From an uncultured Clostridia bacterium (GTDB lineage: Bacteria; Bacillota; Clostridia; Lachnospirales; Lachnospiraceae), in contig CAMWKO010000009.1 of the NCBI GenBank assembly GCA_947174885.1, forward strand, positions 1 to 64,000: 64,000 bases of DNA. Direction: 5' to 3'. A model generated the notes under the pieces. It saw only the letters and a list, made by a program, of their open reading frames with translations, had not been told where the DNA came from and did not search any database. Position numbers and translations under genes: made by a program. This document shows positions 35,565 through 52,302 of this stretch, piece by piece; position 1 is the first letter of the stretch; each line of letters starts with the position of its first letter.

Positions 35565-36584
35565 ATGGATTTTGTTAAAATCATGAATTCGGGTGAATAT
35601 GATTTTTTAAGGAATAATAAAAGACTTGGAAAACGGATAATTCTTATGGGACTTGGCGGAAGCTATGCCTATGGAACTAATAATGAAAATAGCGATATTG
35701 ATTTTAGGGGAATTACGCTAAATCTGCCATCTGACCTGTTGGGACTGACGGAATTTGAGCAATATGAGGATGAAAATACAGATACTGTTATTTACTCTTT
35801 TAATAAGATTGTAAGGCTTCTCTTGGAGTGTAATCCAAATACAATAGAGCTGTTAGGTTTGGATGAGGAGCAGTACCTGATAAAAACAGTACTGGGGCAG
35901 GAACTGCTTAATAATAAAAGTTTGTTTTTGTCAAAGAGAGCTGCAAAGTCCTTTGGCGGATATGCAAGTGCCCAGCTTAGACGATTACAGAATGCTATTG
36001 CCAGAGATTCTATGCCACAGCAGGAGCGGGAGCAGCATATTTATAATTCAGTGAAGAATACTTTAGAGGATTTCAGACGAAAGAATGAAATGTTTGACAA
36101 AGGTAATATAAATATATACATAGATGAATCGGATAATCCGAATTTCAAGACAGAAATATTTATAGATGCGGAATATAAACATTTGCCATTAAGAGATTAC
36201 GAAAAAATGTTAGGCGCCATGAATAATGTTATTAGAGAGTATGACAGGATTGGTAAGCGCAATAAGAAGAAAGATGATAATCATTTAAATAAACATGCAA
36301 TGCACCTGATACGACTATTTATGATGGCGATTGATATACTGGAAAAAGGTGAAATAAGAACTCACAGAACTGATGATTTGGAATTGTTAAAAAGCATAAG
36401 ACGCGGTGATTTTCAAAAAGAAGATAAAACATTTTCAAAGGAATTTTATGATATGCTGTCTGATTATGAGAACAGATTGGAGATTGCAACACGGAATACA
36501 GAATTACAGGACAATCCCGATATGCAAAAGGTCGGGGAATTTGTTGAATATGTGAACAGAAGAGCGATAGAAGGTGATTTTTAG
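35565..36584 (+). CDS. Nucleotidyltransferase-superfamily protein A
   Basis: 339 residues. LMGLGGSYAYGTNNENSDIDFRG carries the GS...DxD active-site pattern of pol-beta-type nucleotidyltransferases; the long helical C-terminus (KKDDNHLNKHAMHLIRLFMM) is typical of the YcgL-like group often carried by phages. AGAAAGGAAA precedes the ATG. Its TAG overlaps the GTG of the next gene by one base, so the two are translationally coupled. Confidence 0.85.
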   Translation: MDFVKIMNSGEYDFLRNNKRLGKRIILMGLGGSYAYGTNNENSDIDFRGITLNLPSDLLGLTEFEQYEDENTDTVIYSFNKIVRLLLECNPNTIELLGLDEEQYLIKTVLGQELLNNKSLFLSKRAAKSFGGYASAQLRRLQNAIARDSMPQQEREQHIYNSVKNTLEDFRRKNEMFDKGNINIYIDESDNPNFKTEIFIDAEYKHLPLRDYEKMLGAMNNVIREYDRIGKRNKKKDDNHLNKHAMHLIRLFMMAIDILEKGEIRTHRTDDLELLKSIRRGDFQKEDKTFSKEFYDMLSDYENRLEIATRNTELQDNPDMQKVGEFVEYVNRRAIEGDF

Positions 36585-37351
36585 TGAAGGATATGAAAAA
36601 GGAAATATTAGACAGACTTGAAGAAATAGAGAAGAAGGAAAATGTTAAAATTATTTATGCAGTTGAGTCAGGAAGCAGAGCATGGGGTGTTGAATCGCCG
36701 GATAGTGATTATGATGTAAGATTTGTTTATGTAAGAAAAAAAGAGGACTATTTAAAAATTAATGAAATGAGAGATGTTATTGAGTGGCAGCTTGACGAAA
36801 TATTGGACATTAATGGCTGGGATTTGAAAAAAACGCTTGTCCAGTTTCATAAAGGAAATGCAACTCTTTTTGAGTGGGCGAATTCACCCGTTGTTTACAG
36901 GACAACAACTGAATGGGAGGAAATATATAAGAGCTGTAAACAGTTTTTTTCCGTAAAAACATCACTTTATCATTACTATGGAACAGCAAACAGTACTTTC
37001 AGGCAGTATTTACAAGGGGATGAGGTAAAGTATAAAAAATACATTTATGCACTCAGACCAATTCTGGCGTGTAAGTATATTGAAAATAACCGCACTGTTC
37101 CACCGGTGAAATTCAGTGATTTGCTTAAGCAAAATCTTCCAAAAGAGCTATCGGAGGAGATAGAGGAGATGCTTGCAATAAAGTTAAAAAGTGATGAAAA
37201 AGACATGAATCCGAAAATGCCTGTAATTCAAAAGTACATAGAGGATGAAATTGTAAGATACGAGCAGATTTCAAAGAATATGGAGGATGACAGAAATCCG
37301 GATTGGGAAGTACTGAATAAAACATTCTTAAAGGTGTTGCTGGTAGAATAA
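36584..37351 (+). CDS. Nucleotidyltransferase-superfamily protein B
   Basis: 255 residues. IYAVESGSRAWGVESPDSDYDVRFVYV has GS..W...SDYD, the same active-site pattern as protein A but from a different branch (YcgL-like), followed by LVQFHKGNATLFEWANSPVV. The start is GTG 36584, inside the stop of A. The two may form a heteromer or act on a common substrate (inference). The stop codon is inside the first base pairs of repeat B1. Confidence 0.87.
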   Translation: MKDMKKEILDRLEEIEKKENVKIIYAVESGSRAWGVESPDSDYDVRFVYVRKKEDYLKINEMRDVIEWQLDEILDINGWDLKKTLVQFHKGNATLFEWANSPVVYRTTTEWEEIYKSCKQFFSVKTSLYHYYGTANSTFRQYLQGDEVKYKKYIYALRPILACKYIENNRTVPPVKFSDLLKQNLPKELSEEIEEMLAIKLKSDEKDMNPKMPVIQKYIEDEIVRYEQISKNMEDDRNPDWEVLNKTFLKVLLVE

Positions 37352-37600
37352 CACCGAGTTGGGAAACAACTCGGTGTGCCTCGTGCATAAAATCTGCGAT
37401 TTTATCCATGAGGCTGTAGTGATAGAGGGAATTTAACACCGAGTTGGGAAGCAACTCGGTGTGCCTCGTGCATAAAATCCGTGATTTTATCCATGAGGCT
37501 GTAGTGATAGAGAAATTTAACACCGAGTTGAGAAACAACTCGGTGTGTCTCGTGCATAAAATCCGTGATTTTATCCATGAGACTGTAGTGATAGAGGGGG
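37350..37600 (+). repeat. Double-hairpin repeat B, three tandem copies
   Basis: Three units of 84-85 bp start at 37350, 37435 and 37519. Each has hairpin 1 CACCGAGTTG-GGAAA-CAACTCGGTG, then CCTCGTG, hairpin 2 CATAAAATC-TGC-GATTTTATCC, and a constant GCTGTAGTGATAGAG tail. They fill the gap between two convergent genes. The several short ORFs in the track here are translations of the repeat. A damaged fourth copy is at 41748-41784. Confidence 0.9.
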
Positions 37601-39601: not shown

Positions 39602-40260
39602 GATATATCCTCCTCTTTATTAATGTTTAGAAATTTATTACCTCAAGCGACATGCCAAAGTCAAACTTGATTGTCCCGGCTACTGCTGTGAGGGTCAAAT
39701 GCCCCAAAGCTATGCCGTGGTGCGGGATTGATGCTTTGTAGCTTGCTACTAGGACTTTGTATTAGATAAATTAATTACTTACACTTAAAGATTATATTTA
39801 ATAGCATAATAAAAGTAGTAAGGCATAAAAGAGTGTAGTATCGTTGGATATACTTTTTGCCATATATCGCTTATCATATCATAAAAACGTTGCTTTTTCT
39901 ATATGTATTTACTTTTAAATTTATGCATTTGATTTGAATTTTCTGATTTTTATAATACTTATATTCTGATGCTTTAAAGTATTCAGACTCAGATTATTTT
40001 AACAAATATATGATATTCTGTTTGTTGTGTGCTATAATATTCTGTATAATTTAGATTTCGTTATTTTTTCTGTCAGAGTCCATAATGTAATATGGAAATA
40101 TACAACAAAAGAGAAGATTTGATGCGAAACCTATTTAGAATAGTTACAGCTTAAAAAATAATATACTATTCCGGAGAGTATAGATTTATAAGGAAGATAT
40201 AGAATTATATGTGGAAAGGAACATATTACAGGACAATCTGTTATGTAAGGAAAGAGGATA
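39602..40260. other. Long intergenic region with a GC-richer segment
   Basis: Around 39640-39770 composition rises. The reverse strand has an open frame, YKVLVASYKASIPHHGIALG then HLTLTAVAGTIKFDFGMSLE and VINF*, without a start codon or ribosome site. AAAGTC...GACTTT can pair across the segment. It may be a relic or a structured leader of the chemoreceptor mRNA. The rest (39780-40200) is AT-rich promoter-like DNA. Confidence 0.4.
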
Positions 40261-41739
40261 ATGAACTGGTCTGTTTTTATTTCCCATTCAACGAAAGATG
40301 GAAAAATAGCAAAAGAGCTATGCAGCTATTTAGAGAGAAATGGGAAAAAATGCTTTATTGCACCACGGGATATACAGGGTGGAAGAGAATATGCAGGAGA
40401 AATATTAAAAGGTATTGAAAACTCCGAAACAATGGTTCTGCTGTTGTCTGCAAATTCCAATGAATCTCCACACGTTCTGCGTGAAGTAGAGCGTGCAGTA
40501 AGCAAATCCATCCCCATTATTATTTACAAGCTGGAAGATGTGGAATTATCAAAATCAATGGAATATTTTCTTATGGCACATCAGTGGATGGATGCAAAAA
40601 AGACAGGAGATTTTGAAAATGTACTAAAGGTTGTAAATGGTATTACCAATCCGAATTTAACGGATGACAGTAATGCCAAAACTAAAGAGGTAGAAAACAA
40701 CAACACTTCAAATGTTAAAAGTAATAATAAAAAAATAATTGCAGCAATAGCAGTGTTACTTTTTAGCGTAGCCGTGATTGGAAGTTTCCTTTTATTCATT
40801 AATAATAATGATAACGGAAATGTAGCTGCAGAAAATCAGACATCTGATGAGAAGCATACATCAGAGGATAATCGCACATTGGAGGAAAATCAAACTTCTG
40901 GGGAAAATAATACATCGGAGGAAAATCAACCTTCAGTCACAGTAGAGGTCGGAGATATAGTAAAGCTTGGAACATATAACGATGAAAAAATAGAATGGAT
41001 GGTGCTAAGGCTGTCAGAAGACGGAAAAGAAGCCGTTCTTATCTCGAAAAACATTTTGTCCATGAAACCATATGATGTGGCAGAGAGCGGAAGATTTAAT
41101 TATGATAAAGACGGAAACAGCTATGTGGAGGATCCGAGGGTAGATGAAAATCAGGAGCTGCAGATACAGGTACGTGGTAACAGCGATTGGAGTGTTTCTA
41201 ATATAAGGACGTGGCTTAATTCTTCGCAGGAGTTTGTAAAGTATCAGGATCAGGCACCTGATAACAGTGCCATAGCAGAGAAAGTGAATGGCTATGTACA
41301 TGAGCCGGGATTTCTGTATGGATTTGGTAAAGAGGAAATGGCGGCAATCAAAGAAGTGGAAAATACGACCCCCGGAAATGCTTCGTCAGGTAAGGATTTT
41401 ATTGTCACAAAAGATAAAGTATACCTGCTTTCCTTAGATGAACTTCAGTGGTTTGAAGATGCAGGAATGAGTATTCTTGCAAAACCGACACAGGCTGCAA
41501 TCGATAGGGATGGCACCACATGGTATGAGGATGATATGGAAATATTTTTGGTAACGGCACATTATTGGTGGCTGCGTGAACCTGTAAAGGAAGCCTCAGG
41601 AAGATGCTATATAGTCGGAAACGGAAATCCTAAGTATCCTGATCAGCTGATTTATGATAAAGATGTAGGATTGGAGGGATTTGGAATCAGACCTGCGATT
41701 ACGGTTTATGTGGATAAGCTTGCAGATATACAGGATTAG
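40261..41739 (+). CDS. Membrane-anchored TIR-domain protein with extracellular DUF6273 domain
   Basis: 492 residues. Residues 1-130 are a TIR domain (WSVFISHSTKDGKIAKELCS, APRDIQGGREYAGEILKGIE, and LREVERAV with the candidate catalytic Glu). A transmembrane helix lies at about 159-180 (IIAAIAVLLFSVAVIGSFLL), followed by a Ser/Thr/Glu-rich linker with repeated ENQTS/ENNTS units and a C-terminal DUF6273 domain (VEVGDIVKLGTYNDEKIEWM ... WWLREP). Topology predicts TIR inside and DUF6273 outside. TIR domains can cleave NAD+ or make signalling nucleotides. The design suggests an outside sensor controlling an inside TIR (inference). AGGAAAGAGG precedes the ATG. Confidence 0.9.
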   Translation: MNWSVFISHSTKDGKIAKELCSYLERNGKKCFIAPRDIQGGREYAGEILKGIENSETMVLLLSANSNESPHVLREVERAVSKSIPIIIYKLEDVELSKSMEYFLMAHQWMDAKKTGDFENVLKVVNGITNPNLTDDSNAKTKEVENNNTSNVKSNNKKIIAAIAVLLFSVAVIGSFLLFINNNDNGNVAAENQTSDEKHTSEDNRTLEENQTSGENNTSEENQPSVTVEVGDIVKLGTYNDEKIEWMVLRLSEDGKEAVLISKNILSMKPYDVAESGRFNYDKDGNSYVEDPRVDENQELQIQVRGNSDWSVSNIRTWLNSSQEFVKYQDQAPDNSAIAEKVNGYVHEPGFLYGFGKEEMAAIKEVENTTPGNASSGKDFIVTKDKVYLLSLDELQWFEDAGMSILAKPTQAAIDRDGTTWYEDDMEIFLVTAHYWWLREPVKEASGRCYIVGNGNPKYPDQLIYDKDVGLEGFGIRPAITVYVDKLADIQD

Positions 41740-41747
41740 TTAATATT

Positions 41748-41784
41748 AACACCAAGTTGTAAAGCAACCGGGTGTGTTTCGTGT
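41748..41784 (+). repeat. Damaged copy of repeat B
   Basis: AACACCAAGTTGTAAAGCAAC then CGGGTGTGTTTCGTG matches the first half of repeat B with several changes. It starts right after the TIR gene and joins a truncated reductase gene. Confidence 0.7.
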
Positions 41785-42190
41785 CTGTATGAAAACAAAG
41801 GATTGTGTACAGCAGGATGATATTATGGAGATTGCCGGATTACTTAGAAAATGTGATGTTGTTGTTCTGGCAGCTCCTGTTTATTGGGCAAATGTACCGG
41901 CAATAGTTAAAAATATGTTTGACAGACTTTTGGGAGTGGTAATGGAAGAAACAAAAACTTTTCCAAAATCAAGACTTTCTAATGAGCAAAAGTATATTCT
42001 TTTGACAGCATGTAACACGCCTGCTCCGTTTTCCTATATTTTTGGACAAAGCAGGGGAGCAATTAGAAGCATGAAAGAATTTTTTAAAACATCAGGTATG
42101 AGATATGCCGGGAAATGTGTATGGGCAGGGCAAAACAAAAAAGCAATTCCACATAATGTTAAGAGCAGAATTGAAAAGCTTATAAAGTGA
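41774..42190 (+). pseudogene. NADPH-dependent FMN reductase/flavodoxin-fold gene lacking its N-terminus
   Basis: From VCMKTKDCVQQDDIMEIAGL the sequence follows the second half of this family: VVVLAAPVYWANVPAIVKNM, FDRLLGVV and the tail. The FMN-binding N-terminus (GSPRxxGNT) is missing; the gene begins in the middle of the CxxC-KTKDC segment exactly where the repeat B fragment ends. It is probably inactive even if translated. Confidence 0.8.
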
Positions 42191-44775: not shown

Positions 44776-44997
44776 ATGTCATTGTGTGAGTTAGTACGGA
44801 ATATGCGCAAAAGGGCGCTTCTATCTCAAGAGGATTTTGCTAAGCTGCTGAATGTATCCGTAGGTACGATAAATCGCTGGGAAAATGGAAAAACCAAGCC
44901 GAATATTACGGCTATGAAGAAAATCAAGGCTTATTGCGAGGATAAGTCTATCCCCTTTGAAGAGATTGAGTCAGAATGGCTCAAAGATAAGGAGTAA
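44776..44997 (+). CDS. XRE HTH regulator leading the type I RM operon
   Basis: 73 residues with NMRKRALLSQEDFAKLLNVSVGTINRWENGKTKPN, a full XRE helix-turn-helix. AAAGGAG precedes the ATG. It lies 4 bp before hsdM and probably controls the operon, as small controller proteins do in other RM systems (inference). Confidence 0.88.
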   Translation: MSLCELVRNMRKRALLSQEDFAKLLNVSVGTINRWENGKTKPNITAMKKIKAYCEDKSIPFEEIESEWLKDKE

Positions 44998-45001
44998 TAT
45001 C

Positions 45002-46576
45002 ATGGCTGACATAAAGAAAGATCAGGAGCGGGACGAGCTGTTCCGCACTATATATAAAATTGCTACCGACCTTGTTCACGCAGGTCATGTATCCGAATGG
45101 GATTTCAAATCTTATGTTCTCGGAACAATGTTCTACCGCTATATTTCCGAGAATTTTGCCACCTATATCAATGCAGGCGAACACGCAGCAGGCAATACCG
45201 ATTTTGATTATGCAAAGATTTCTGACGAGATAGCAGAAACGATACGTGAGGATATGATTCAAACCAAGGGCTTTTTTATCCTTCCGAGCGAGCTGTTTTG
45301 TAATGTCCGTGCCCGTGCGGATAAGGACGAAAACCTTAACGAAACCTTAGAGCGTGTTTTTAACCATATTGAAAGTAGTGCTGCCAGTGGGGATGCGGAA
45401 AATGATTTTGCCGGACTGTTTGACGATTTCGATGTAAACAGTAAATCTATCGGCGAAACGGTCGCTAAGAGGAACAAGGTGCTTGCAGAGCTTTTGAACG
45501 GCGTAGATAAAATGCCGTTGTTTCAGGCGGATGGTATCAATCCCGATCTGTTCGGCGACGCATATGAATATCTGATGGGTATGTACGCCGCCAACGCAGG
45601 CAAAAAAGGCGGTCAGTATTTTACTCCGGCAGATGTTTCCGAACTGCTTGCCCGTCTTGGCACGATTGGAAAGACGAGAATCAACAAGGTATATGACCCA
45701 GCCTGCGGTTCTGGCTCGCTTCTGTTGAAAGTTGAAAAGGTTTTAGGTAAGGACAATATTGAACAGGGATTTTTCGGACAGGAGATCGACCTGACTACAT
45801 ATAACCTTTGCCGTATCAATATGTTTCTGCACAATATCGACTTTGATAAATTCAGTATCGTGCGTGAAGATACGCTGCTCAGCCCACATCACTGGGATGA
45901 CCAACCTTTTGAACTGATCGTTTCCAATCCGCCTTTCTCTGTTCCGTGGGAGGGGGATAAAAATCCGCTGCTGATCAATGATATTCGCTTTTCTCCTGCC
46001 GGAGTGCTTGCGCCTGCATCAAAAGGCGATATGGCGTTTATTATGCATAGCCTTTCTTGGCTTGCAAATAACGGAGCTGCTGCAATCGTCTGTTTCCCCG
46101 GCATTATGTACCGTGGCGGCGTAGAGCAGAAGATTCGTAAATACCTTGTGGATAACAACTATGTGGATGCTGTTATTCAGCTTCCGTCCAATCTTTTCCT
46201 CAATGTCACCATATCCGTTGATATTATGCTCTTTAAAAAGAACAAAACGGATAATGCTATTTTGTTTGTAGACGCTTCACGGGAATTTGTTAAGATGACG
46301 AAAAACAACCGACTTTCCGAAGCGAACATTCAGCGTATCGTTTCTGCCGCCACGGAGCGGAAGGACGAGCAGTATTTTACCCGTCTTGTATCAAACGACG
46401 AGGTTGGCAATGAGCAGAATGCCTATAATCTTTCGGTTTCAACCTATGTGGAGGCGGAGGACACACGGGAAAAGATTGATATTGCAAAGCTGAATGCGGA
46501 AATCGCAAAAATCGTAGCACGGGAACAAGTGCTGAGGGATGAGATTGATAAAATTATTAGGGAGATTGAGAGATAA
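45002..46576 (+). CDS. hsdM: Type I restriction-modification DNA methyltransferase subunit
   Basis: 524 residues. HsdM N6-methylates adenine within the site recognised by HsdS and is required for both modification and restriction. An N-terminal helical domain (LFRTIYKIATDLVHAGHVSE) precedes the methyltransferase domain with GGQYFTPADVSELLAR, motif I DPACGSGSLLLKVEK and catalytic motif IV NPPF (ELIVSNPPFSVPWEG). The start at 45002 has AAGGAG upstream. G+C is markedly higher than in flanking genes, indicating separate origin. It is followed by an unrelated membrane gene, not directly by hsdS. Confidence 0.95.
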   Translation: MADIKKDQERDELFRTIYKIATDLVHAGHVSEWDFKSYVLGTMFYRYISENFATYINAGEHAAGNTDFDYAKISDEIAETIREDMIQTKGFFILPSELFCNVRARADKDENLNETLERVFNHIESSAASGDAENDFAGLFDDFDVNSKSIGETVAKRNKVLAELLNGVDKMPLFQADGINPDLFGDAYEYLMGMYAANAGKKGGQYFTPADVSELLARLGTIGKTRINKVYDPACGSGSLLLKVEKVLGKDNIEQGFFGQEIDLTTYNLCRINMFLHNIDFDKFSIVREDTLLSPHHWDDQPFELIVSNPPFSVPWEGDKNPLLINDIRFSPAGVLAPASKGDMAFIMHSLSWLANNGAAAIVCFPGIMYRGGVEQKIRKYLVDNNYVDAVIQLPSNLFLNVTISVDIMLFKKNKTDNAILFVDASREFVKMTKNNRLSEANIQRIVSAATERKDEQYFTRLVSNDEVGNEQNAYNLSVSTYVEAEDTREKIDIAKLNAEIAKIVAREQVLRDEIDKIIREIER

Positions 46577-46580
46577 TACT

Positions 46581-47465
46581 ATGGAAATATACGGATGGAT
46601 AATTGAACATACTGATATTTTAGGACTGATAATTGATTTTCTTTCACTATTGGCAACCATCTTTCTTACTATTGCTATTTATTTGCTGGAGAGGCATCAT
46701 GAAAAAGAAAGAGAAAAAGCTGAAGAAAAAGCACAAAAATCAGCCGTAATCGAGAGTGCAAAAAATTTTCTTATTAATAACGATAATGAGATTGAATATA
46801 TTCCGTTAGCAGAAATTGCAGCAAAACTTAAAATAAGAAGAAAACATTGTCGCCACTTAATAAACCGATATTTACGTTGCAGTGAACAGCAACAACAGGA
46901 AATTCTATGTCAAGCAAATATTCCAGATATTCAAGTATCGATGGATTCTGTGCAAACTGCATTGAAATATCTGCAAGCCGATTTGAACAAATATAAATTT
47001 GGTAGAAACATACTCTACGATGAAGCAAAATACCTGCACCGTGCTTTTGAAAGATGGTCAGAAGTTGCAGTTGATGATGTTAATCCTTATATATTTGAAG
47101 ATTTGCTAAAAAGTGAATGGCATGGTGAACAATCAGGAGTTTCGTGGCGATCCTCAAATTGTAGCACTACACTTTCCTCATATATGTGGGACTATCTGCA
47201 TCCAACGGAAATCAATATTGATAGGAATAGAATCAAACCGCCTATTGATATGGTATTTCAGAAATGTAATTTAGGATATTGTGAAGAAAGCACTATGACA
47301 TTCTGGACAATGCGGATTATTATTGATGCCTGCCACACTATTAAAAACGAACAGTACGAAGATATATTTGATGAATATCTCATTCAAACACAGGAAGATA
47401 TGTATTACTATACTTTAGCTGTGCTGTGCAAAACATATGCCGCTGGAGGGGATAAACAGAAATGA
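46581..47465 (+). CDS. Unrecognised membrane protein X inside the RM operon
   Basis: 294 residues from ATG 46581 (the track start is in hsdM). A single N-terminal transmembrane helix (LGLIIDFLSLLATIFLTIAI) is followed by a Lys/Glu-rich coil (HHEKEREKAEEKAQKSAV) and a large cytoplasmic, mostly helical domain rich in C, W and Y (SEWHGEQSGVSWRSSNCSTT). I recognise no family. Its G+C is far lower than hsdM and hsdR. The last 4 bp overlap hsdS, so it is translated as part of the operon. It could be a defence effector, a regulator or an inhibitor of restriction. Confidence 0.8.
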   Translation: MEIYGWIIEHTDILGLIIDFLSLLATIFLTIAIYLLERHHEKEREKAEEKAQKSAVIESAKNFLINNDNEIEYIPLAEIAAKLKIRRKHCRHLINRYLRCSEQQQQEILCQANIPDIQVSMDSVQTALKYLQADLNKYKFGRNILYDEAKYLHRAFERWSEVAVDDVNPYIFEDLLKSEWHGEQSGVSWRSSNCSTTLSSYMWDYLHPTEINIDRNRIKPPIDMVFQKCNLGYCEESTMTFWTMRIIIDACHTIKNEQYEDIFDEYLIQTQEDMYYYTLAVLCKTYAAGGDKQK

Positions 47466-48556
47466 GCAAACTTGAAGAAGCGATACAAGAGTTTTGCCAA
47501 AATGGTGTTATATACAAGGAGCTAAAAGAAATCCTTACGATAAAAAACGGCAGTGATTATAAACATCTCGGAACTGGAAATATTCCAGTTTACGGTTCCG
47601 GCGGTATTATGACATATGTTGACCATTATGCCTACGATAAACCGTCAGTTTTAATTCCGAGAAAAGGGTCTGTTGATAAACTTTATTATGTAGAAGAACC
47701 ATTTTGGAATGTGGATACTATTTTTTATACGGATATTGATATCGGTCAGGCAATACCAAAGTATGTGTATTATTGCTTACAGATGGAACATTTGGAACAG
47801 TATAATACTGCTGGGGGTGTTCCAAGTTTAACTCAGGCTGTATTAAATAAAGTTAAAATTCCCGTCCCCCCTCTCCCTGTTCAACGCGAAATTGTTCGTA
47901 TTTTGGACAATTTCACAGAGCTTACGGCAGAGCTTACGGCAGAGCTTACGGCGAGAAAAAAACAGTATGAGTATTATAGGGATAAACTGTTGGACAATAC
48001 AAATTCCCCTATGAAAACTATTGCTAATTTATGTCATGTATTCGCTGGTGGAGACGCACCAAAAGATGCTATATCTAACGAAAAAACTGACAAGTATTAT
48101 ATTCCAATTATTAGTAACGGAATTGGTGAAAATGCTTTTTATGGATACACTACAACTGCAAAAATAACCAATCCGGCTGTCACTATTGCTGCAAGAGGAA
48201 CTATTGGATATGCAGAATATAGAGATTATCCATATTTCCCAATTGTTAGATTGCTTTCAGCGATACCTAAAGATTTCAAGGAATTGAACACAAAATATCT
48301 ATACTATTGCTTACAGGATAAGTCATATAAAGTGCCTATTAGTGGTATTCAACAACTTACTGCTCCCGAAATAAAAAAAGTGTCAATTTATGTTCCACCC
48401 CTTGAAGAACAAGAACGCATCGTTGCCATTCTTGACCGCTTTGATACCCTCTGCAACGACATTACAAGTGGCTTGCCCGCCGAAATCGAGGCACGGCAAA
48501 AACAATACGAATATTACAGGGACAAGCTATTAACATTTAAGGAGAAAACAAGCTGA
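47462..48556 (+). CDS. hsdS: Type I restriction-modification specificity subunit
   Basis: 364 residues with two target-recognition domains (about 15-150 and 180-335). Between them sits LTAELTAELTARKKQYEYYR, three TAEL units encoded by a 12-bp tandem repeat; the same repeat sets the spacing between half-sites in EcoR124I/EcoR124II. The sequence ends with the second conserved helix (ARQKQYEYYRDKLL). The ATG overlaps gene X and the end overlaps gene Y by one base. The central part of TRD2 is lower in G+C, as expected for a swapped domain. Confidence 0.94.
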   Translation: MSKLEEAIQEFCQNGVIYKELKEILTIKNGSDYKHLGTGNIPVYGSGGIMTYVDHYAYDKPSVLIPRKGSVDKLYYVEEPFWNVDTIFYTDIDIGQAIPKYVYYCLQMEHLEQYNTAGGVPSLTQAVLNKVKIPVPPLPVQREIVRILDNFTELTAELTAELTARKKQYEYYRDKLLDNTNSPMKTIANLCHVFAGGDAPKDAISNEKTDKYYIPIISNGIGENAFYGYTTTAKITNPAVTIAARGTIGYAEYRDYPYFPIVRLLSAIPKDFKELNTKYLYYCLQDKSYKVPISGIQQLTAPEIKKVSIYVPPLEEQERIVAILDRFDTLCNDITSGLPAEIEARQKQYEYYRDKLLTFKEKTS

Positions 48557-49185
48557 TGGGAAAAGGAAGAAACAAGAAAAAAGCAAAACAGAATATTGCT
48601 TCAAAACCTTTACAAACCGCCAATATCAATCTACCGGAAAATATGAGTGCGGAAGCAATACAACACATCATTGCTTGTGCTATTGTAGAAGCCGAGGAAA
48701 TAAAAACACAAAAAGCAGAAGAACAACGTAAAGCTACTCTTATAGAATGGCGTGATAAAATAGGATACAGGGAATATAAAAACAAGTTCAAACAGTTTTT
48801 CAATGAGGTAAAGGTATTCATAAAAGTATTGTTTCTGCCTAAAAAACATATTGAAGGAAATCGAGCTTCTGAAATACTGTTGAAATTGTTCATAGCATTA
48901 TTCTTTTGGATTATGAAGTGTTGTTCGCTGATTTTGTCTATATTGTTGATTGCGCTTGTTCCCGCTCAATATATAATGCAAAATATCACTGTATTGCCAT
49001 GGTATCAAAATATGCTTTATATTTTTTATGGAGTATTAGCATTTGTATTTTCCCGTTTATTCCGAATGGCAGGTATCGAAATAGATAATCTCGATGATCG
49101 TAATTATCTTTTCGGTCTGTTTGCTTCCATTACTTCTTTTGTTTCAATTATTATTGCGGTTATCGCTATTGTAAAGGGGGCTTAA
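48556..49185 (+). CDS. Unrecognised membrane protein Y inside the RM operon
   Basis: 209 residues. A basic, charged N-terminal third (GRNKKKAKQNIASKPLQTAN) is followed by a helix with NMSAEAIQHIIACAIVEAEE and then hydrophobic segments at about 112-132, 150-168 and 187-206. No family recognised. It overlaps hsdS by one base and lies 3 bp before hsdR. AT-rich like gene X and unlike hsdR. It may partner gene X. Confidence 0.78.
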   Translation: MGKGRNKKKAKQNIASKPLQTANINLPENMSAEAIQHIIACAIVEAEEIKTQKAEEQRKATLIEWRDKIGYREYKNKFKQFFNEVKVFIKVLFLPKKHIEGNRASEILLKLFIALFFWIMKCCSLILSILLIALVPAQYIMQNITVLPWYQNMLYIFYGVLAFVFSRLFRMAGIEIDNLDDRNYLFGLFASITSFVSIIIAVIAIVKGA

Positions 49186-49188
49186 CCA

Positions 49189-52100
49189 ATGCCGTATTTC
49201 AATATTGTTGCTCGATCCAGCGAAAGCACGGTTGTAACCGAATACAAGCCGCAGTCAAAACGCTCGGAGGCTTACCAAAGCGAAGCGGAACTTGAAAAAG
49301 AATTTATCCGCCTGATGAAAGATTTAGGCTATGAATATCTGACCATACATAAAGAAAAAGACCTTATCGACAACCTACGCACACAGCTTGAAAAGCTGAA
49401 CGATTATCGGTTTTCTGATGATGAGTGGAATCGATTTTTTCATGAGGTTCTTGCCAATTCCAAAGACAGCATTGTAGAAAAGACGCGCCTTATTCAGGAA
49501 GATCATGTGCAGGTATTGAAGCGTGATAACGGAGAAAGTAAGAATATCACGCTTATTGACAAAAAGAACATTCATAACAATACGCTTCAGGTCATCAATC
49601 AATACGCAGTTTCTGCCGACGAAGGCGCTGCGCACGCTAACCGTTACGATGTGACAATTATTGTGAACGGTCTGCCGCTTATACATATTGAGCTAAAGCG
49701 TAGGGGTGTGCCGATCCGTGAGGCGTTTAATCAGATCGACCGTTATCAGCGTGATAGCTTTTGGGCGGCAAGTGGGCTTTATGAATTTGTGCAGATATTT
49801 GTAATATCCAACGGCACGAATACCAAGTATTATTCAAATACCACCCGCTTCAACCATATTAAGGACGCCAATTCTCATAAGGCGAAAAAAGAAAAGACAA
49901 GCCACAGCTTTGAGTTTACATCCTTTTGGGCAGATGCAAATAACCGCATTATTCCCGACCTTGTGGACTTTACAAAGACATTTTTCTGCAAGCATACTAT
50001 TCTGAACATATTGACTCGTTACTGCGTTTTTACGGCGGAAAATATGCTGCTTGTTATGCGTCCCTATCAGATTGTTGCCACCGAGCGTATTTTGAACCGT
50101 ATTGAGATCGCAGAGAATTATAAGAAGTACGGCAGTGTTGCCGGCGGCGGTTATATTTGGCATACAACAGGCAGCGGTAAAACGCTGACATCATTTAAGA
50201 CGGCGCAGCTTACATCAAAGCTAAATTATATTGACAAGGTTCTGTTTGTTGTTGACCGAAAAGACCTTGACTATCAGACGATGAAGGAGTATGACCGTTT
50301 TGAAAAAGGAGCTGCCAACAGCAATTCCTCTACTACCATACTGAAAAAACAGCTTGAGGACGACAACGCAAAAATTATTATTACTACCATTCAAAAACTT
50401 GCTACCTTCATCAAAAAGAATGCTGGTCACAGCGTTTTTGACAAGCGTGTGGTCATTATCTTTGACGAATGCCACCGCAGCCAATTCGGTGATATGCACT
50501 TGGCAATTACGAAGTATTTCAAAAAATATCACTTATTTGGATTTACAGGAACGCCGATCTTTGCAGTCAATGCCGGAGTAAGCAAAAATCCCACGCTTCG
50601 CACGACTGAGCAGGCTTTCGGAGATCAATTGCACACCTATACTATCGTGGACGCCATCAATGATAAGAATGTACTGCCATTCCGTGTGGATTATATTAAA
50701 ACAATGGATAAGGAACCGGATATCGACGATAAAGAGGTATGGGATATCAACCGTGAAAAAGCGTTTCAGGCTCCCGAACGCATTCGCTTGGTAACAGAAT
50801 ATATCCTCACGCATTTTGATCAGAAAACTTATCGTGGAGATAAAACTTATACATTCAATGTTTTGCAGAATATCGCTGATGTGGCATCTGCAGGTGGCAG
50901 AGCCGCTATTGAGGAAATAAAACAAAAGCAGCGTGTCAGCGGCTTCAACTCAATTTTTGCAGTTTCATCTGTGGATGCTGCAAAGTTGTATTATGCCGAA
51001 TTTAAGCGTCAAATGGCTGAAAATCCGCAGCGGCGGCTAAAGGTCGCTCTTATTTACAGCTACGGTGCAAACGAAGCAGAAACAGACGGACTTCTTGATG
51101 AAGAAAACCCGGAAGATACTTCTGCACTTGACGCAACCTCCCGTGATTTTCTTGACACAGCTATTGCCGATTACAACGAGATGTTCCATACCAATTATTC
51201 CACAGACGGCGATAAATTTCAGAACTACTATAAAGATGTGTCGCTCAGAATGAAGAATAAGGAGCTTGATTTGCTCATTGTGGTCAATATGTTCCTGACA
51301 GGCTTTGACGCAACTACGCTTAACACGCTGTGGGTAGATAAAAATCTGAAAATGCACGGATTGATTCAGGCGTATTCTCGTACCAACCGAATACTCAATT
51401 CGATCAAAACATTTGGGAATATCGTTTGCTTCCGCAATCTGCAAAAACGCACAGATGACGCTATTTCACTCTTCGGTGACAAGGAAGCAGGCGGCATTGT
51501 GCTGATGCGCGGTTATAAGGACTATTATTTTGGCTACGAGGACTCTGACGGAAAATATCATCCCGGCTATGCCGATATGATAGAAGAACTGACAACAAAG
51601 TTTCCTCTTTCTGATGAACGTATCATCGGAGAACAAAAACAGAAGGAATTTATCGTCCTGCTCGGCGCTATCCTTCGTATGCGTAATCTGCTGACATCAT
51701 TTGATGAGTTCGCAGGGAACGGAATCCTTTCCGAGCGTGATTTTCAGGATTATCTCGGCAGATATCAGGATCTTCGTGACGAATGGAAGAATCGTAAACC
51801 TAGCGGAGAAAAAGAGGATATCACAGACGATATTGTTTTTGAAATCGAGCTTATTAAGCAAATTGAAATCAATATTGATTATATCCTGATGCTGGTTAAA
51901 AAGTATCATGATTCACACTGTGATGATAAGGAAGTGCTTATCACGATCCGTAAAACTGTAGACGCCAGCCCTGAGCTTCGCAGCAAAAAGGCACTTATCG
52001 AGAACTTCATTGCCGGCATTAACGATGTTTCCGATGTTATGATCGAGTGGCGAAACTATGTGGCTGAGGAAAAAGAAAGAGAGCTTGTTACTATTATCAA

Positions 52101-52302
52101 GGAAGAAAATCTCAAAGAAGAGGAAACAAGAAAATTTATTGATGTGGCTTTTCGTGACGGTTCGATAAAGACAAGCGGTACGACGATTGATAAACTTATG
52201 CCGCCGATGTCCCGCTTTGGCGGTGGAAACCGTGCTGAAAAGAAGCAGGGCGTGATCCAAAAGCTGCAAGCATTTTTTGAGAGGTTCTTCGGAATTGGAT
52301 AA
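49189..52302 (+). CDS. hsdR: Type I restriction-modification motor/endonuclease subunit
   Basis: 1037 residues. The N-terminal nuclease domain has RYDVTIIVNGLPLIHIELKR (PD-(D/E)xK site, about 155-170). Walker A is HTTGSGKTLTS (about 325), Walker B IIFDECHRSQFG (about 425), FGFTGTPIF is motif III, and MFLTGFDATT and AYSRTNRI are helicase motifs V and VI. Length and order match EcoR124-type HsdR. It translocates DNA and cuts unmodified foreign DNA. Complete, with no frameshift, so the system should be functional. Confidence 0.95.
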   Translation: MPYFNIVARSSESTVVTEYKPQSKRSEAYQSEAELEKEFIRLMKDLGYEYLTIHKEKDLIDNLRTQLEKLNDYRFSDDEWNRFFHEVLANSKDSIVEKTRLIQEDHVQVLKRDNGESKNITLIDKKNIHNNTLQVINQYAVSADEGAAHANRYDVTIIVNGLPLIHIELKRRGVPIREAFNQIDRYQRDSFWAASGLYEFVQIFVISNGTNTKYYSNTTRFNHIKDANSHKAKKEKTSHSFEFTSFWADANNRIIPDLVDFTKTFFCKHTILNILTRYCVFTAENMLLVMRPYQIVATERILNRIEIAENYKKYGSVAGGGYIWHTTGSGKTLTSFKTAQLTSKLNYIDKVLFVVDRKDLDYQTMKEYDRFEKGAANSNSSTTILKKQLEDDNAKIIITTIQKLATFIKKNAGHSVFDKRVVIIFDECHRSQFGDMHLAITKYFKKYHLFGFTGTPIFAVNAGVSKNPTLRTTEQAFGDQLHTYTIVDAINDKNVLPFRVDYIKTMDKEPDIDDKEVWDINREKAFQAPERIRLVTEYILTHFDQKTYRGDKTYTFNVLQNIADVASAGGRAAIEEIKQKQRVSGFNSIFAVSSVDAAKLYYAEFKRQMAENPQRRLKVALIYSYGANEAETDGLLDEENPEDTSALDATSRDFLDTAIADYNEMFHTNYSTDGDKFQNYYKDVSLRMKNKELDLLIVVNMFLTGFDATTLNTLWVDKNLKMHGLIQAYSRTNRILNSIKTFGNIVCFRNLQKRTDDAISLFGDKEAGGIVLMRGYKDYYFGYEDSDGKYHPGYADMIEELTTKFPLSDERIIGEQKQKEFIVLLGAILRMRNLLTSFDEFAGNGILSERDFQDYLGRYQDLRDEWKNRKPSGEKEDITDDIVFEIELIKQIEINIDYILMLVKKYHDSHCDDKEVLITIRKTVDASPELRSKKALIENFIAGINDVSDVMIEWRNYVAEEKERELVTIIKEENLKEEETRKFIDVAFRDGSIKTSGTTIDKLMPPMSRFGGGNRAEKKQGVIQKLQAFFERFFGIG

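Follow-up and report, generated by a model that had tools for sequence, protein, structure and literature searches.

Characterized bacterial TIR proteins mostly sense intracellular cues and have roles in phage defence or cell death. A gene at positions 40261-41739 of a 64,000-nucleotide stretch of an uncultured Clostridia bacterium of the Lachnospiraceae (contig CAMWKO010000009.1, positions 1 to 64,000; hereafter the window) raises the question of whether a TIR domain can be controlled from outside the cell and, if so, what lies downstream of it. The gene encodes a 492-residue protein comprising, from N- to C-terminus, a TIR domain, a single transmembrane helix (TM), a polar linker and a DUF6273 domain. 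On balance, we favour the reading that this TIR-TM-DUF6273 protein is a membrane receptor for an external ligand, whose TIR domain signals through a DHH-DHHA1 phosphoesterase carrying a distinctive C-terminal domain (DHH-CTD). The features of the gene and its product are as follows:

40247-40257, + strand: Shine-Dalgarno sequence AAGGAAAGAGG (read from sequence)
40261-41739, + strand: coding sequence of the TIR-TM-DUF6273 protein, 492 residues (open reading frame; family of 85 sequences)
40273-40614, + strand: TIR domain, residues 5-118, predicted cytoplasmic (Pfam TIR_2; full-length model)
40471-40485, + strand: HVLRE motif, H71 to E75 (alignment of 85 sequences)
40738-40794, + strand: transmembrane helix, residues 160-178 (AlphaFold2 helix, hydropathy)
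40801-40935, + strand: flexible polar linker, residues 181-225 (low predicted local distance difference test score, pLDDT; tandem repeat)
40936-41712, + strand: predicted extracytoplasmic DUF6273 domain, residues 226-484 (pLDDT 96.3; Pfam match; match to PDB 9qa6)

The reading frame is preceded by a good ribosome-binding site (AAGGAAAGAGG), and both terminal domains are recognized well above their curated cut-offs: TIR_2 at residues 5-118 (E 8.6e-19, 68.7 bits, cut-off 28) and DUF6273 at residues 295-482 (E 2.8e-16, 60.3 bits, cut-off 23.5). The full-length AlphaFold2 model, built with 73 aligned sequences, shows a confident TIR domain and a helix at residues 160-178; the linker after it is disordered, and the ectodomain, starting near residue 230, is compact. 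The linker is rich in glutamate, asparagine, threonine and serine, and its DNA contains 5.8 tandem copies of an 18-bp unit (40831-40934). Hydropathy, model and repeat together bear out the first-pass annotation of this DNA, which had placed one helix and a low-complexity linker between the two domains. The architecture is not a product of chance, as it is common to 85 full-length sequences.

Exactly one TM separates the TIR domain from the ectodomain in all 85 sequences (one homologue, L113, has an additional weak hydrophobic peak within the TIR domain), and no signal peptide precedes the TIR domain. Lysine and arginine residues within the 12 residues flanking the helix average 4.2 before it and 1.7 after it, and the positive-inside bias runs in the expected direction in 79 of the 85 homologues (nominal p 1.6e-14, the sequences being related and hence non-independent). 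A single-pass topology with the N-terminus inside is supported by these sequence features, in keeping with the earlier proposal of an internal TIR and an external DUF6273 domain and at odds with the reversed orientation that would have told against it. The predicted outside location follows from the helix and the charge pattern, not from the domain alone; many DUF6273 proteins have signal peptides or N-terminal anchors, but some lack any TM, and the domain by itself is no proof of position.

What might the external domain recognize? Modelled alone, residues 226-484 form one domain (pLDDT 96.3; predicted template-modelling score 0.93) that is larger than the Pfam match. Its sole strong match among solved structures is 9qa6, the DUF6273 domain at the N-terminus of ThomasA, an IgA protease of Thomasclavelia ramosa, both by sequence (E 9.4e-23, nearly whole length) and by fold (Foldseek E 6.9e-17, TMq 0.70). 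In ThomasA, the closest solved relative of the ectodomain, DUF6273 is fused to a peptidase and IgA recognition maps to the catalytic domain (PMC12402451); IgA binding by analogy was therefore rejected, and ThomasA supplies no DUF6273 ligand. The ectodomain is also homologous to the phage nd4 protein and to a Hoc-like decoration PHROG. For nd4, modelling and DALI liken DUF6273 to a C-type-lectin fold, with a hairpin made variable by a diversity-generating retroelement (DGR) at the surface (PMC10743442). A lectin fold is probable for the ectodomain too, the C-type-lectin name being taken from that study; our own Foldseek search returned only a weak match to lectin folds, the Lcl C-terminal domain (E 0.24). 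Hypermutation of the ectodomain by a DGR was considered and rejected, as the host genome (assembly 97.5% complete) contains no match to the reverse transcriptase family RVT_1.

Many ectodomain residues are invariant or almost so (among them W246, W310, R316, W318, N320, Y328, N343, G350, F351, L438, R439, G475, R477 and P478). The ectodomain has diverged faster than the TIR domain: mean pairwise identity is 49% against 66% across the family, and the two copies of the host genome are 46% identical in the ectodomain and 75% in the TIR domain. This pattern would fit a set of receptors that respond to different ligands but share a conserved output. DUF6273 behaves as an interchangeable ectodomain, since it also caps Ser/Thr kinase-TM and TIR-TPR-TM proteins in other Lachnospiraceae. 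These fusions, to Ser/Thr kinases and a TIR-TPR-TM protein, lie at loci L040 (1492-3474), L041 (1441-3282) and L048 (3-1910); the kinase fusion has a TM in L040, and none was found in L041. Control of the TIR protein by an envelope ligand, as first suggested, is plausible.

The TIR domain in the full-length model matches the structures of SARM1, Toll-like receptor (TLR) and plant TIR domains. The first-pass annotation had made its case depend on a catalytic residue, and the glutamate at the catalytic position, E75, is invariant in 85/85 homologues; it aligns with the glutamate of plant RPV1, of the bacterial TIR 4c7m and of the WVxKE motif in other TIRs encoded near DHH-CTD. E77, R36, S8, G41 and H71 are likewise invariant or almost so. 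H71 (conservation rounding to 100%) occupies the position four before the glutamate, where tryptophan is usual; beta-propeller and zinc-ribbon TIRs have tryptophan there. In the survey of Toshchakov and Neuwald, W71 and E75 bind ligand in SARM1, and the catalytic-position glutamate is critical for NADase activity, yet it is frequent in TIRs without reported activity (PMC7075850). NADase activity is hence plausible but is not to be assumed, because tryptophan is replaced by histidine at position 71 and the glutamate alone is not predictive (PMC7075850).

Scanning one genome per bacterial species gave 109 relatives, and some 80 related species carry the protein. The best 80 loci belong, with few exceptions, to Lachnospiraceae and Oscillospiraceae, and most are of animal-gut origin; a locus labelled Bacteroides nests within Oscillospiraceae on the tree and is probably mis-binned. 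The host genome carries a second copy on another contig (C7:73342-74721), as well as a degenerate TIR remnant with an internal stop (C3:111050-111298). The family is chromosomal. Mobile carriage was considered and rejected: the protein had no plasmid match, and the lone full-length hit labelled 'phage' falls on an 8.3-kb faecal scaffold that has no annotation, is marked UNVERIFIED and is more likely bacterial than phage.

Across 78 homologous loci, the commonest neighbour by far is a DHH-DHHA1 protein of about 500 residues (DHH E 1.1e-15; DHHA1 E 3.8e-6). Its HDNPDxDA motif is present in 11/11 homologues checked, and the DHH and GGGH motifs in nearly all. The C-terminal domain (CTD) of about 200 residues has no Pfam name, contains two GE-Y / GDY-type repeats and is weakly similar to several phage protein families of unknown function. 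DHH-CTD lies within four genes of the TIR gene in 24/78 loci; the order is TIR then DHH in 21, in 20 of which no more than 46 bp separate the two genes, and the genes upstream of the pair differ between loci. A survey of neighbours had been proposed in the first-pass annotation, in which the recurrent associate, a phosphoesterase, had gone unseen. GGDEF/EAL genes, present upstream of the paralogue in this genome, were rejected as a conserved associate because the upstream genes of the homologues vary. No paper describing either the TIR-DUF6273 architecture or a TIR-DHH pair was found in the open-access literature searched, within which the linkage of TIR and DHH-CTD is undescribed.

The association extends beyond adjacency. 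Within the genus, the long form of DHH-CTD occurs in 6/6 TIR carriers and 0/2 non-carriers. It was also found in 40/48 further carrier genomes (43/51 before duplicates were removed), which had mostly been picked for non-adjacent TIR and DHH genes. The background against which this is set is 32/200: full-length DHH-CTD occurs in just that many genomes of the family (about one per genus), and a universal housekeeping neighbour was rejected on this ground; the carriers recognized among these 200 by TIR score (G000, G132, G189 and G122) have it in 4/4 cases. Adjacency requires 10 changes on the tree, at least six of them forced by well-supported branches, compared with 23 when labels are shuffled.

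The partner is also found with TIR proteins of other designs. In 18 of the 32 DHH-CTD genomes, a TIR gene is adjacent to DHH-CTD or no more than a few kilobases away; a simple model of random placement predicts about 0.2 (binomial P 2e-32). These TIRs include TIR-TM-DUF6273, TIR-TM-beta-propeller proteins (about 1000 residues, WD40-like in Pfam) and short TIRs with C-terminal TM helices. In a further group of loci (L232-L236), cytosolic TIRs, several with zinc-ribbon-like tails, are encoded in operons with receiver-class III cyclase genes and proteins ending in the CTD, mostly also with GAF/GGDEF-like genes; L233 encodes the CTD and the class III cyclase as one fusion protein. These apparently represent an undescribed TIR-linked nucleotide-signalling locus. 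The CTD is common to enzymes predicted to degrade and to make nucleotides, each beside a TIR, and this association makes it a good candidate for the part that reads the signal of the TIR or passes it on.

The architecture, topology bias, conserved glutamate, domain homologies and genetic linkage to DHH-CTD were computed directly, and a mechanism may be outlined from them. DUF6273, on its flexible linker, would bind a ligand at or beyond the cell envelope, and once it is bound the cytoplasmic TIR domains would cluster differently. The signal would then be passed on by the TIR, most likely through synthesis or breakdown of a nucleotide derived from NAD. This nucleotide, or contact with the TIR itself, may in turn control the cytosolic DHH-DHHA1 phosphoesterase with its two-repeat CTD. 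Several points weigh against this proposal. That a ligand binds, that TIR domains cluster, what chemistry the TIR performs and that signalling runs towards DHH-CTD are all points that we infer; with H71 in place of the ligand-binding tryptophan of SARM1, the TIR may lack NADase activity. No DHH gene is adjacent to the window copy (the DHH-CTD of this genome lies on contig C7, beside the paralogue), about one-sixth of carrier genomes lack a detected DHH-CTD (some being incomplete drafts), and the co-occurrence counts are only partly corrected for relatedness.

The protein could alternatively be an anti-phage abortive-infection receptor, with DUF6273 at the cell surface detecting phage particles, envelope damage or phage-borne binding proteins and the TIR depleting NAD to stop or kill the cell. 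We consider this unlikely. In its favour, bacterial TIRs are mostly defence effectors, the ectodomain is related to phage binding proteins, and a type I restriction system stands 3.2 kb away from the TIR gene in the window. That system is a local feature, however: no relatives of its genes occur near the 78 homologous loci, and membership of a defence island was rejected on this basis. Matches to PADLOC are weak, the ThsB match (28.6 bits) being confined to the TIR domain; the NCBIfam Thoeris match (24 bits) falls below its cut-off of 220, no recurrent ThsA-like neighbour was found among the homologous loci, and the gene that does recur encodes a phosphoesterase and is not among the known defence genes. 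The protein has the TIR fold and the conserved glutamate in common with Thoeris ThsB and other defence TIRs; it differs from them in its membrane anchor and outside sensor, and in having DHH-CTD instead of ThsA. The defence role implied in the first-pass annotation thus finds no support in the genomic neighbourhoods or in the lack of plasmid matches.

Two further explanations concern the output. The TIR may be a non-enzymatic docking domain that, once clustered by the ligand, recruits DHH-CTD or some other protein through contact, in the manner of animal Toll-like receptors. H71 would fit such a role, as would the association of DHH-CTD with TIRs of differing architecture, and E75 is also frequent in the non-enzymatic TIRs of TLRs (PMC7075850). 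Its invariance in this family and the strong conservation of neighbouring residues exceed the needs of docking alone, however, and this explanation is likewise improbable. That the link to DHH-CTD is an inherited neighbourhood without function, with the receptor acting alone or through unlinked partners, is very improbable indeed. Adjacency is limited to a minority of loci and is clustered on the tree; against this, most carrier genomes have DHH-CTD even when it is unlinked, it stands beside unrelated TIR architectures elsewhere, the pair stays together while upstream genes vary, and adjacency changes are repeatedly forced on the tree. The favoured reading, of a receptor signalling through DHH-CTD, extends more tentatively to a wider one: possibly, gut Firmicutes have a Toll-like two-protein system in which membrane TIR receptors with exchangeable sensors (DUF6273 or beta-propeller) signal to a dedicated DHH-CTD phosphoesterase, in which the CTD would read what the TIR puts out or pass it on.

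Animal Toll-like and IL-1 receptors offer a parallel in design, with one TM helix, a ligand-binding ectodomain outside and a TIR inside. Here the order is reversed, the TIR being N-terminal, DUF6273 takes the place of leucine-rich repeats or immunoglobulin domains, and E75 is invariant. Having neither a leucine-rich-repeat ectodomain nor a C-terminal TIR, the protein falls outside the Toll-like receptors, and the likeness does not imply common descent as a receptor. DGR variable proteins of cyanobacteria and multicellular bacteria join C-type-lectin domains to TIR, kinase or STAND domains (PMC7517822, PMC10907252), a combination that the probable lectin fold of the ectodomain would match. Most of them are predicted to be cytosolic, and a reverse transcriptase hypermutates them; the sensor of the present protein is predicted to lie outside, in a genome without a reverse transcriptase. 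Tentaclins and other DUF6273 phage proteins share the homologous domain (PMC10743442), but are structural or binding proteins without a TIR or TM anchor.

Other features of the window were recorded alongside. The type I restriction system (HsdM, HsdS and HsdR, 44957-52302) is complete, with two additional membrane or unknown genes between its subunits (46539-47465 and 48556-49185). Beside the TIR gene, a flavodoxin-fold gene (41774-42190) lacks its N-terminal third (Pfam match from profile position 65/198) and is probably a truncated pseudogene. Two RlaP-type nucleotidyltransferase genes (RNA repair pathway polymerase-beta family) stand in tandem at 35565-37351. At 37349-37598 an 84-bp unit is present in three tandem copies, all of which contain a perfect hairpin, ACACCGAGTTG-NGAAN-CAACTCGGTGT. 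With 20 occurrences in the genome at up to three mismatches and none in the reversed control, this hairpin belongs to a family resembling repetitive extragenic palindromes; a degenerate copy apparently lies 3' of the TIR gene stop, near 41747.

TIR-TM-DUF6273 is a widespread, chromosomal and receptor-shaped architecture, with a sensor placed outside and a recurrent enzymatic associate that bears no relation to the known TIR effectors. The link to TIR proteins offers a route to the role of the unnamed CTD. If the proposed reading is correct, bacteria would have Toll-like transmembrane TIR signalling, and DHH-CTD would provide a concrete, testable downstream step.
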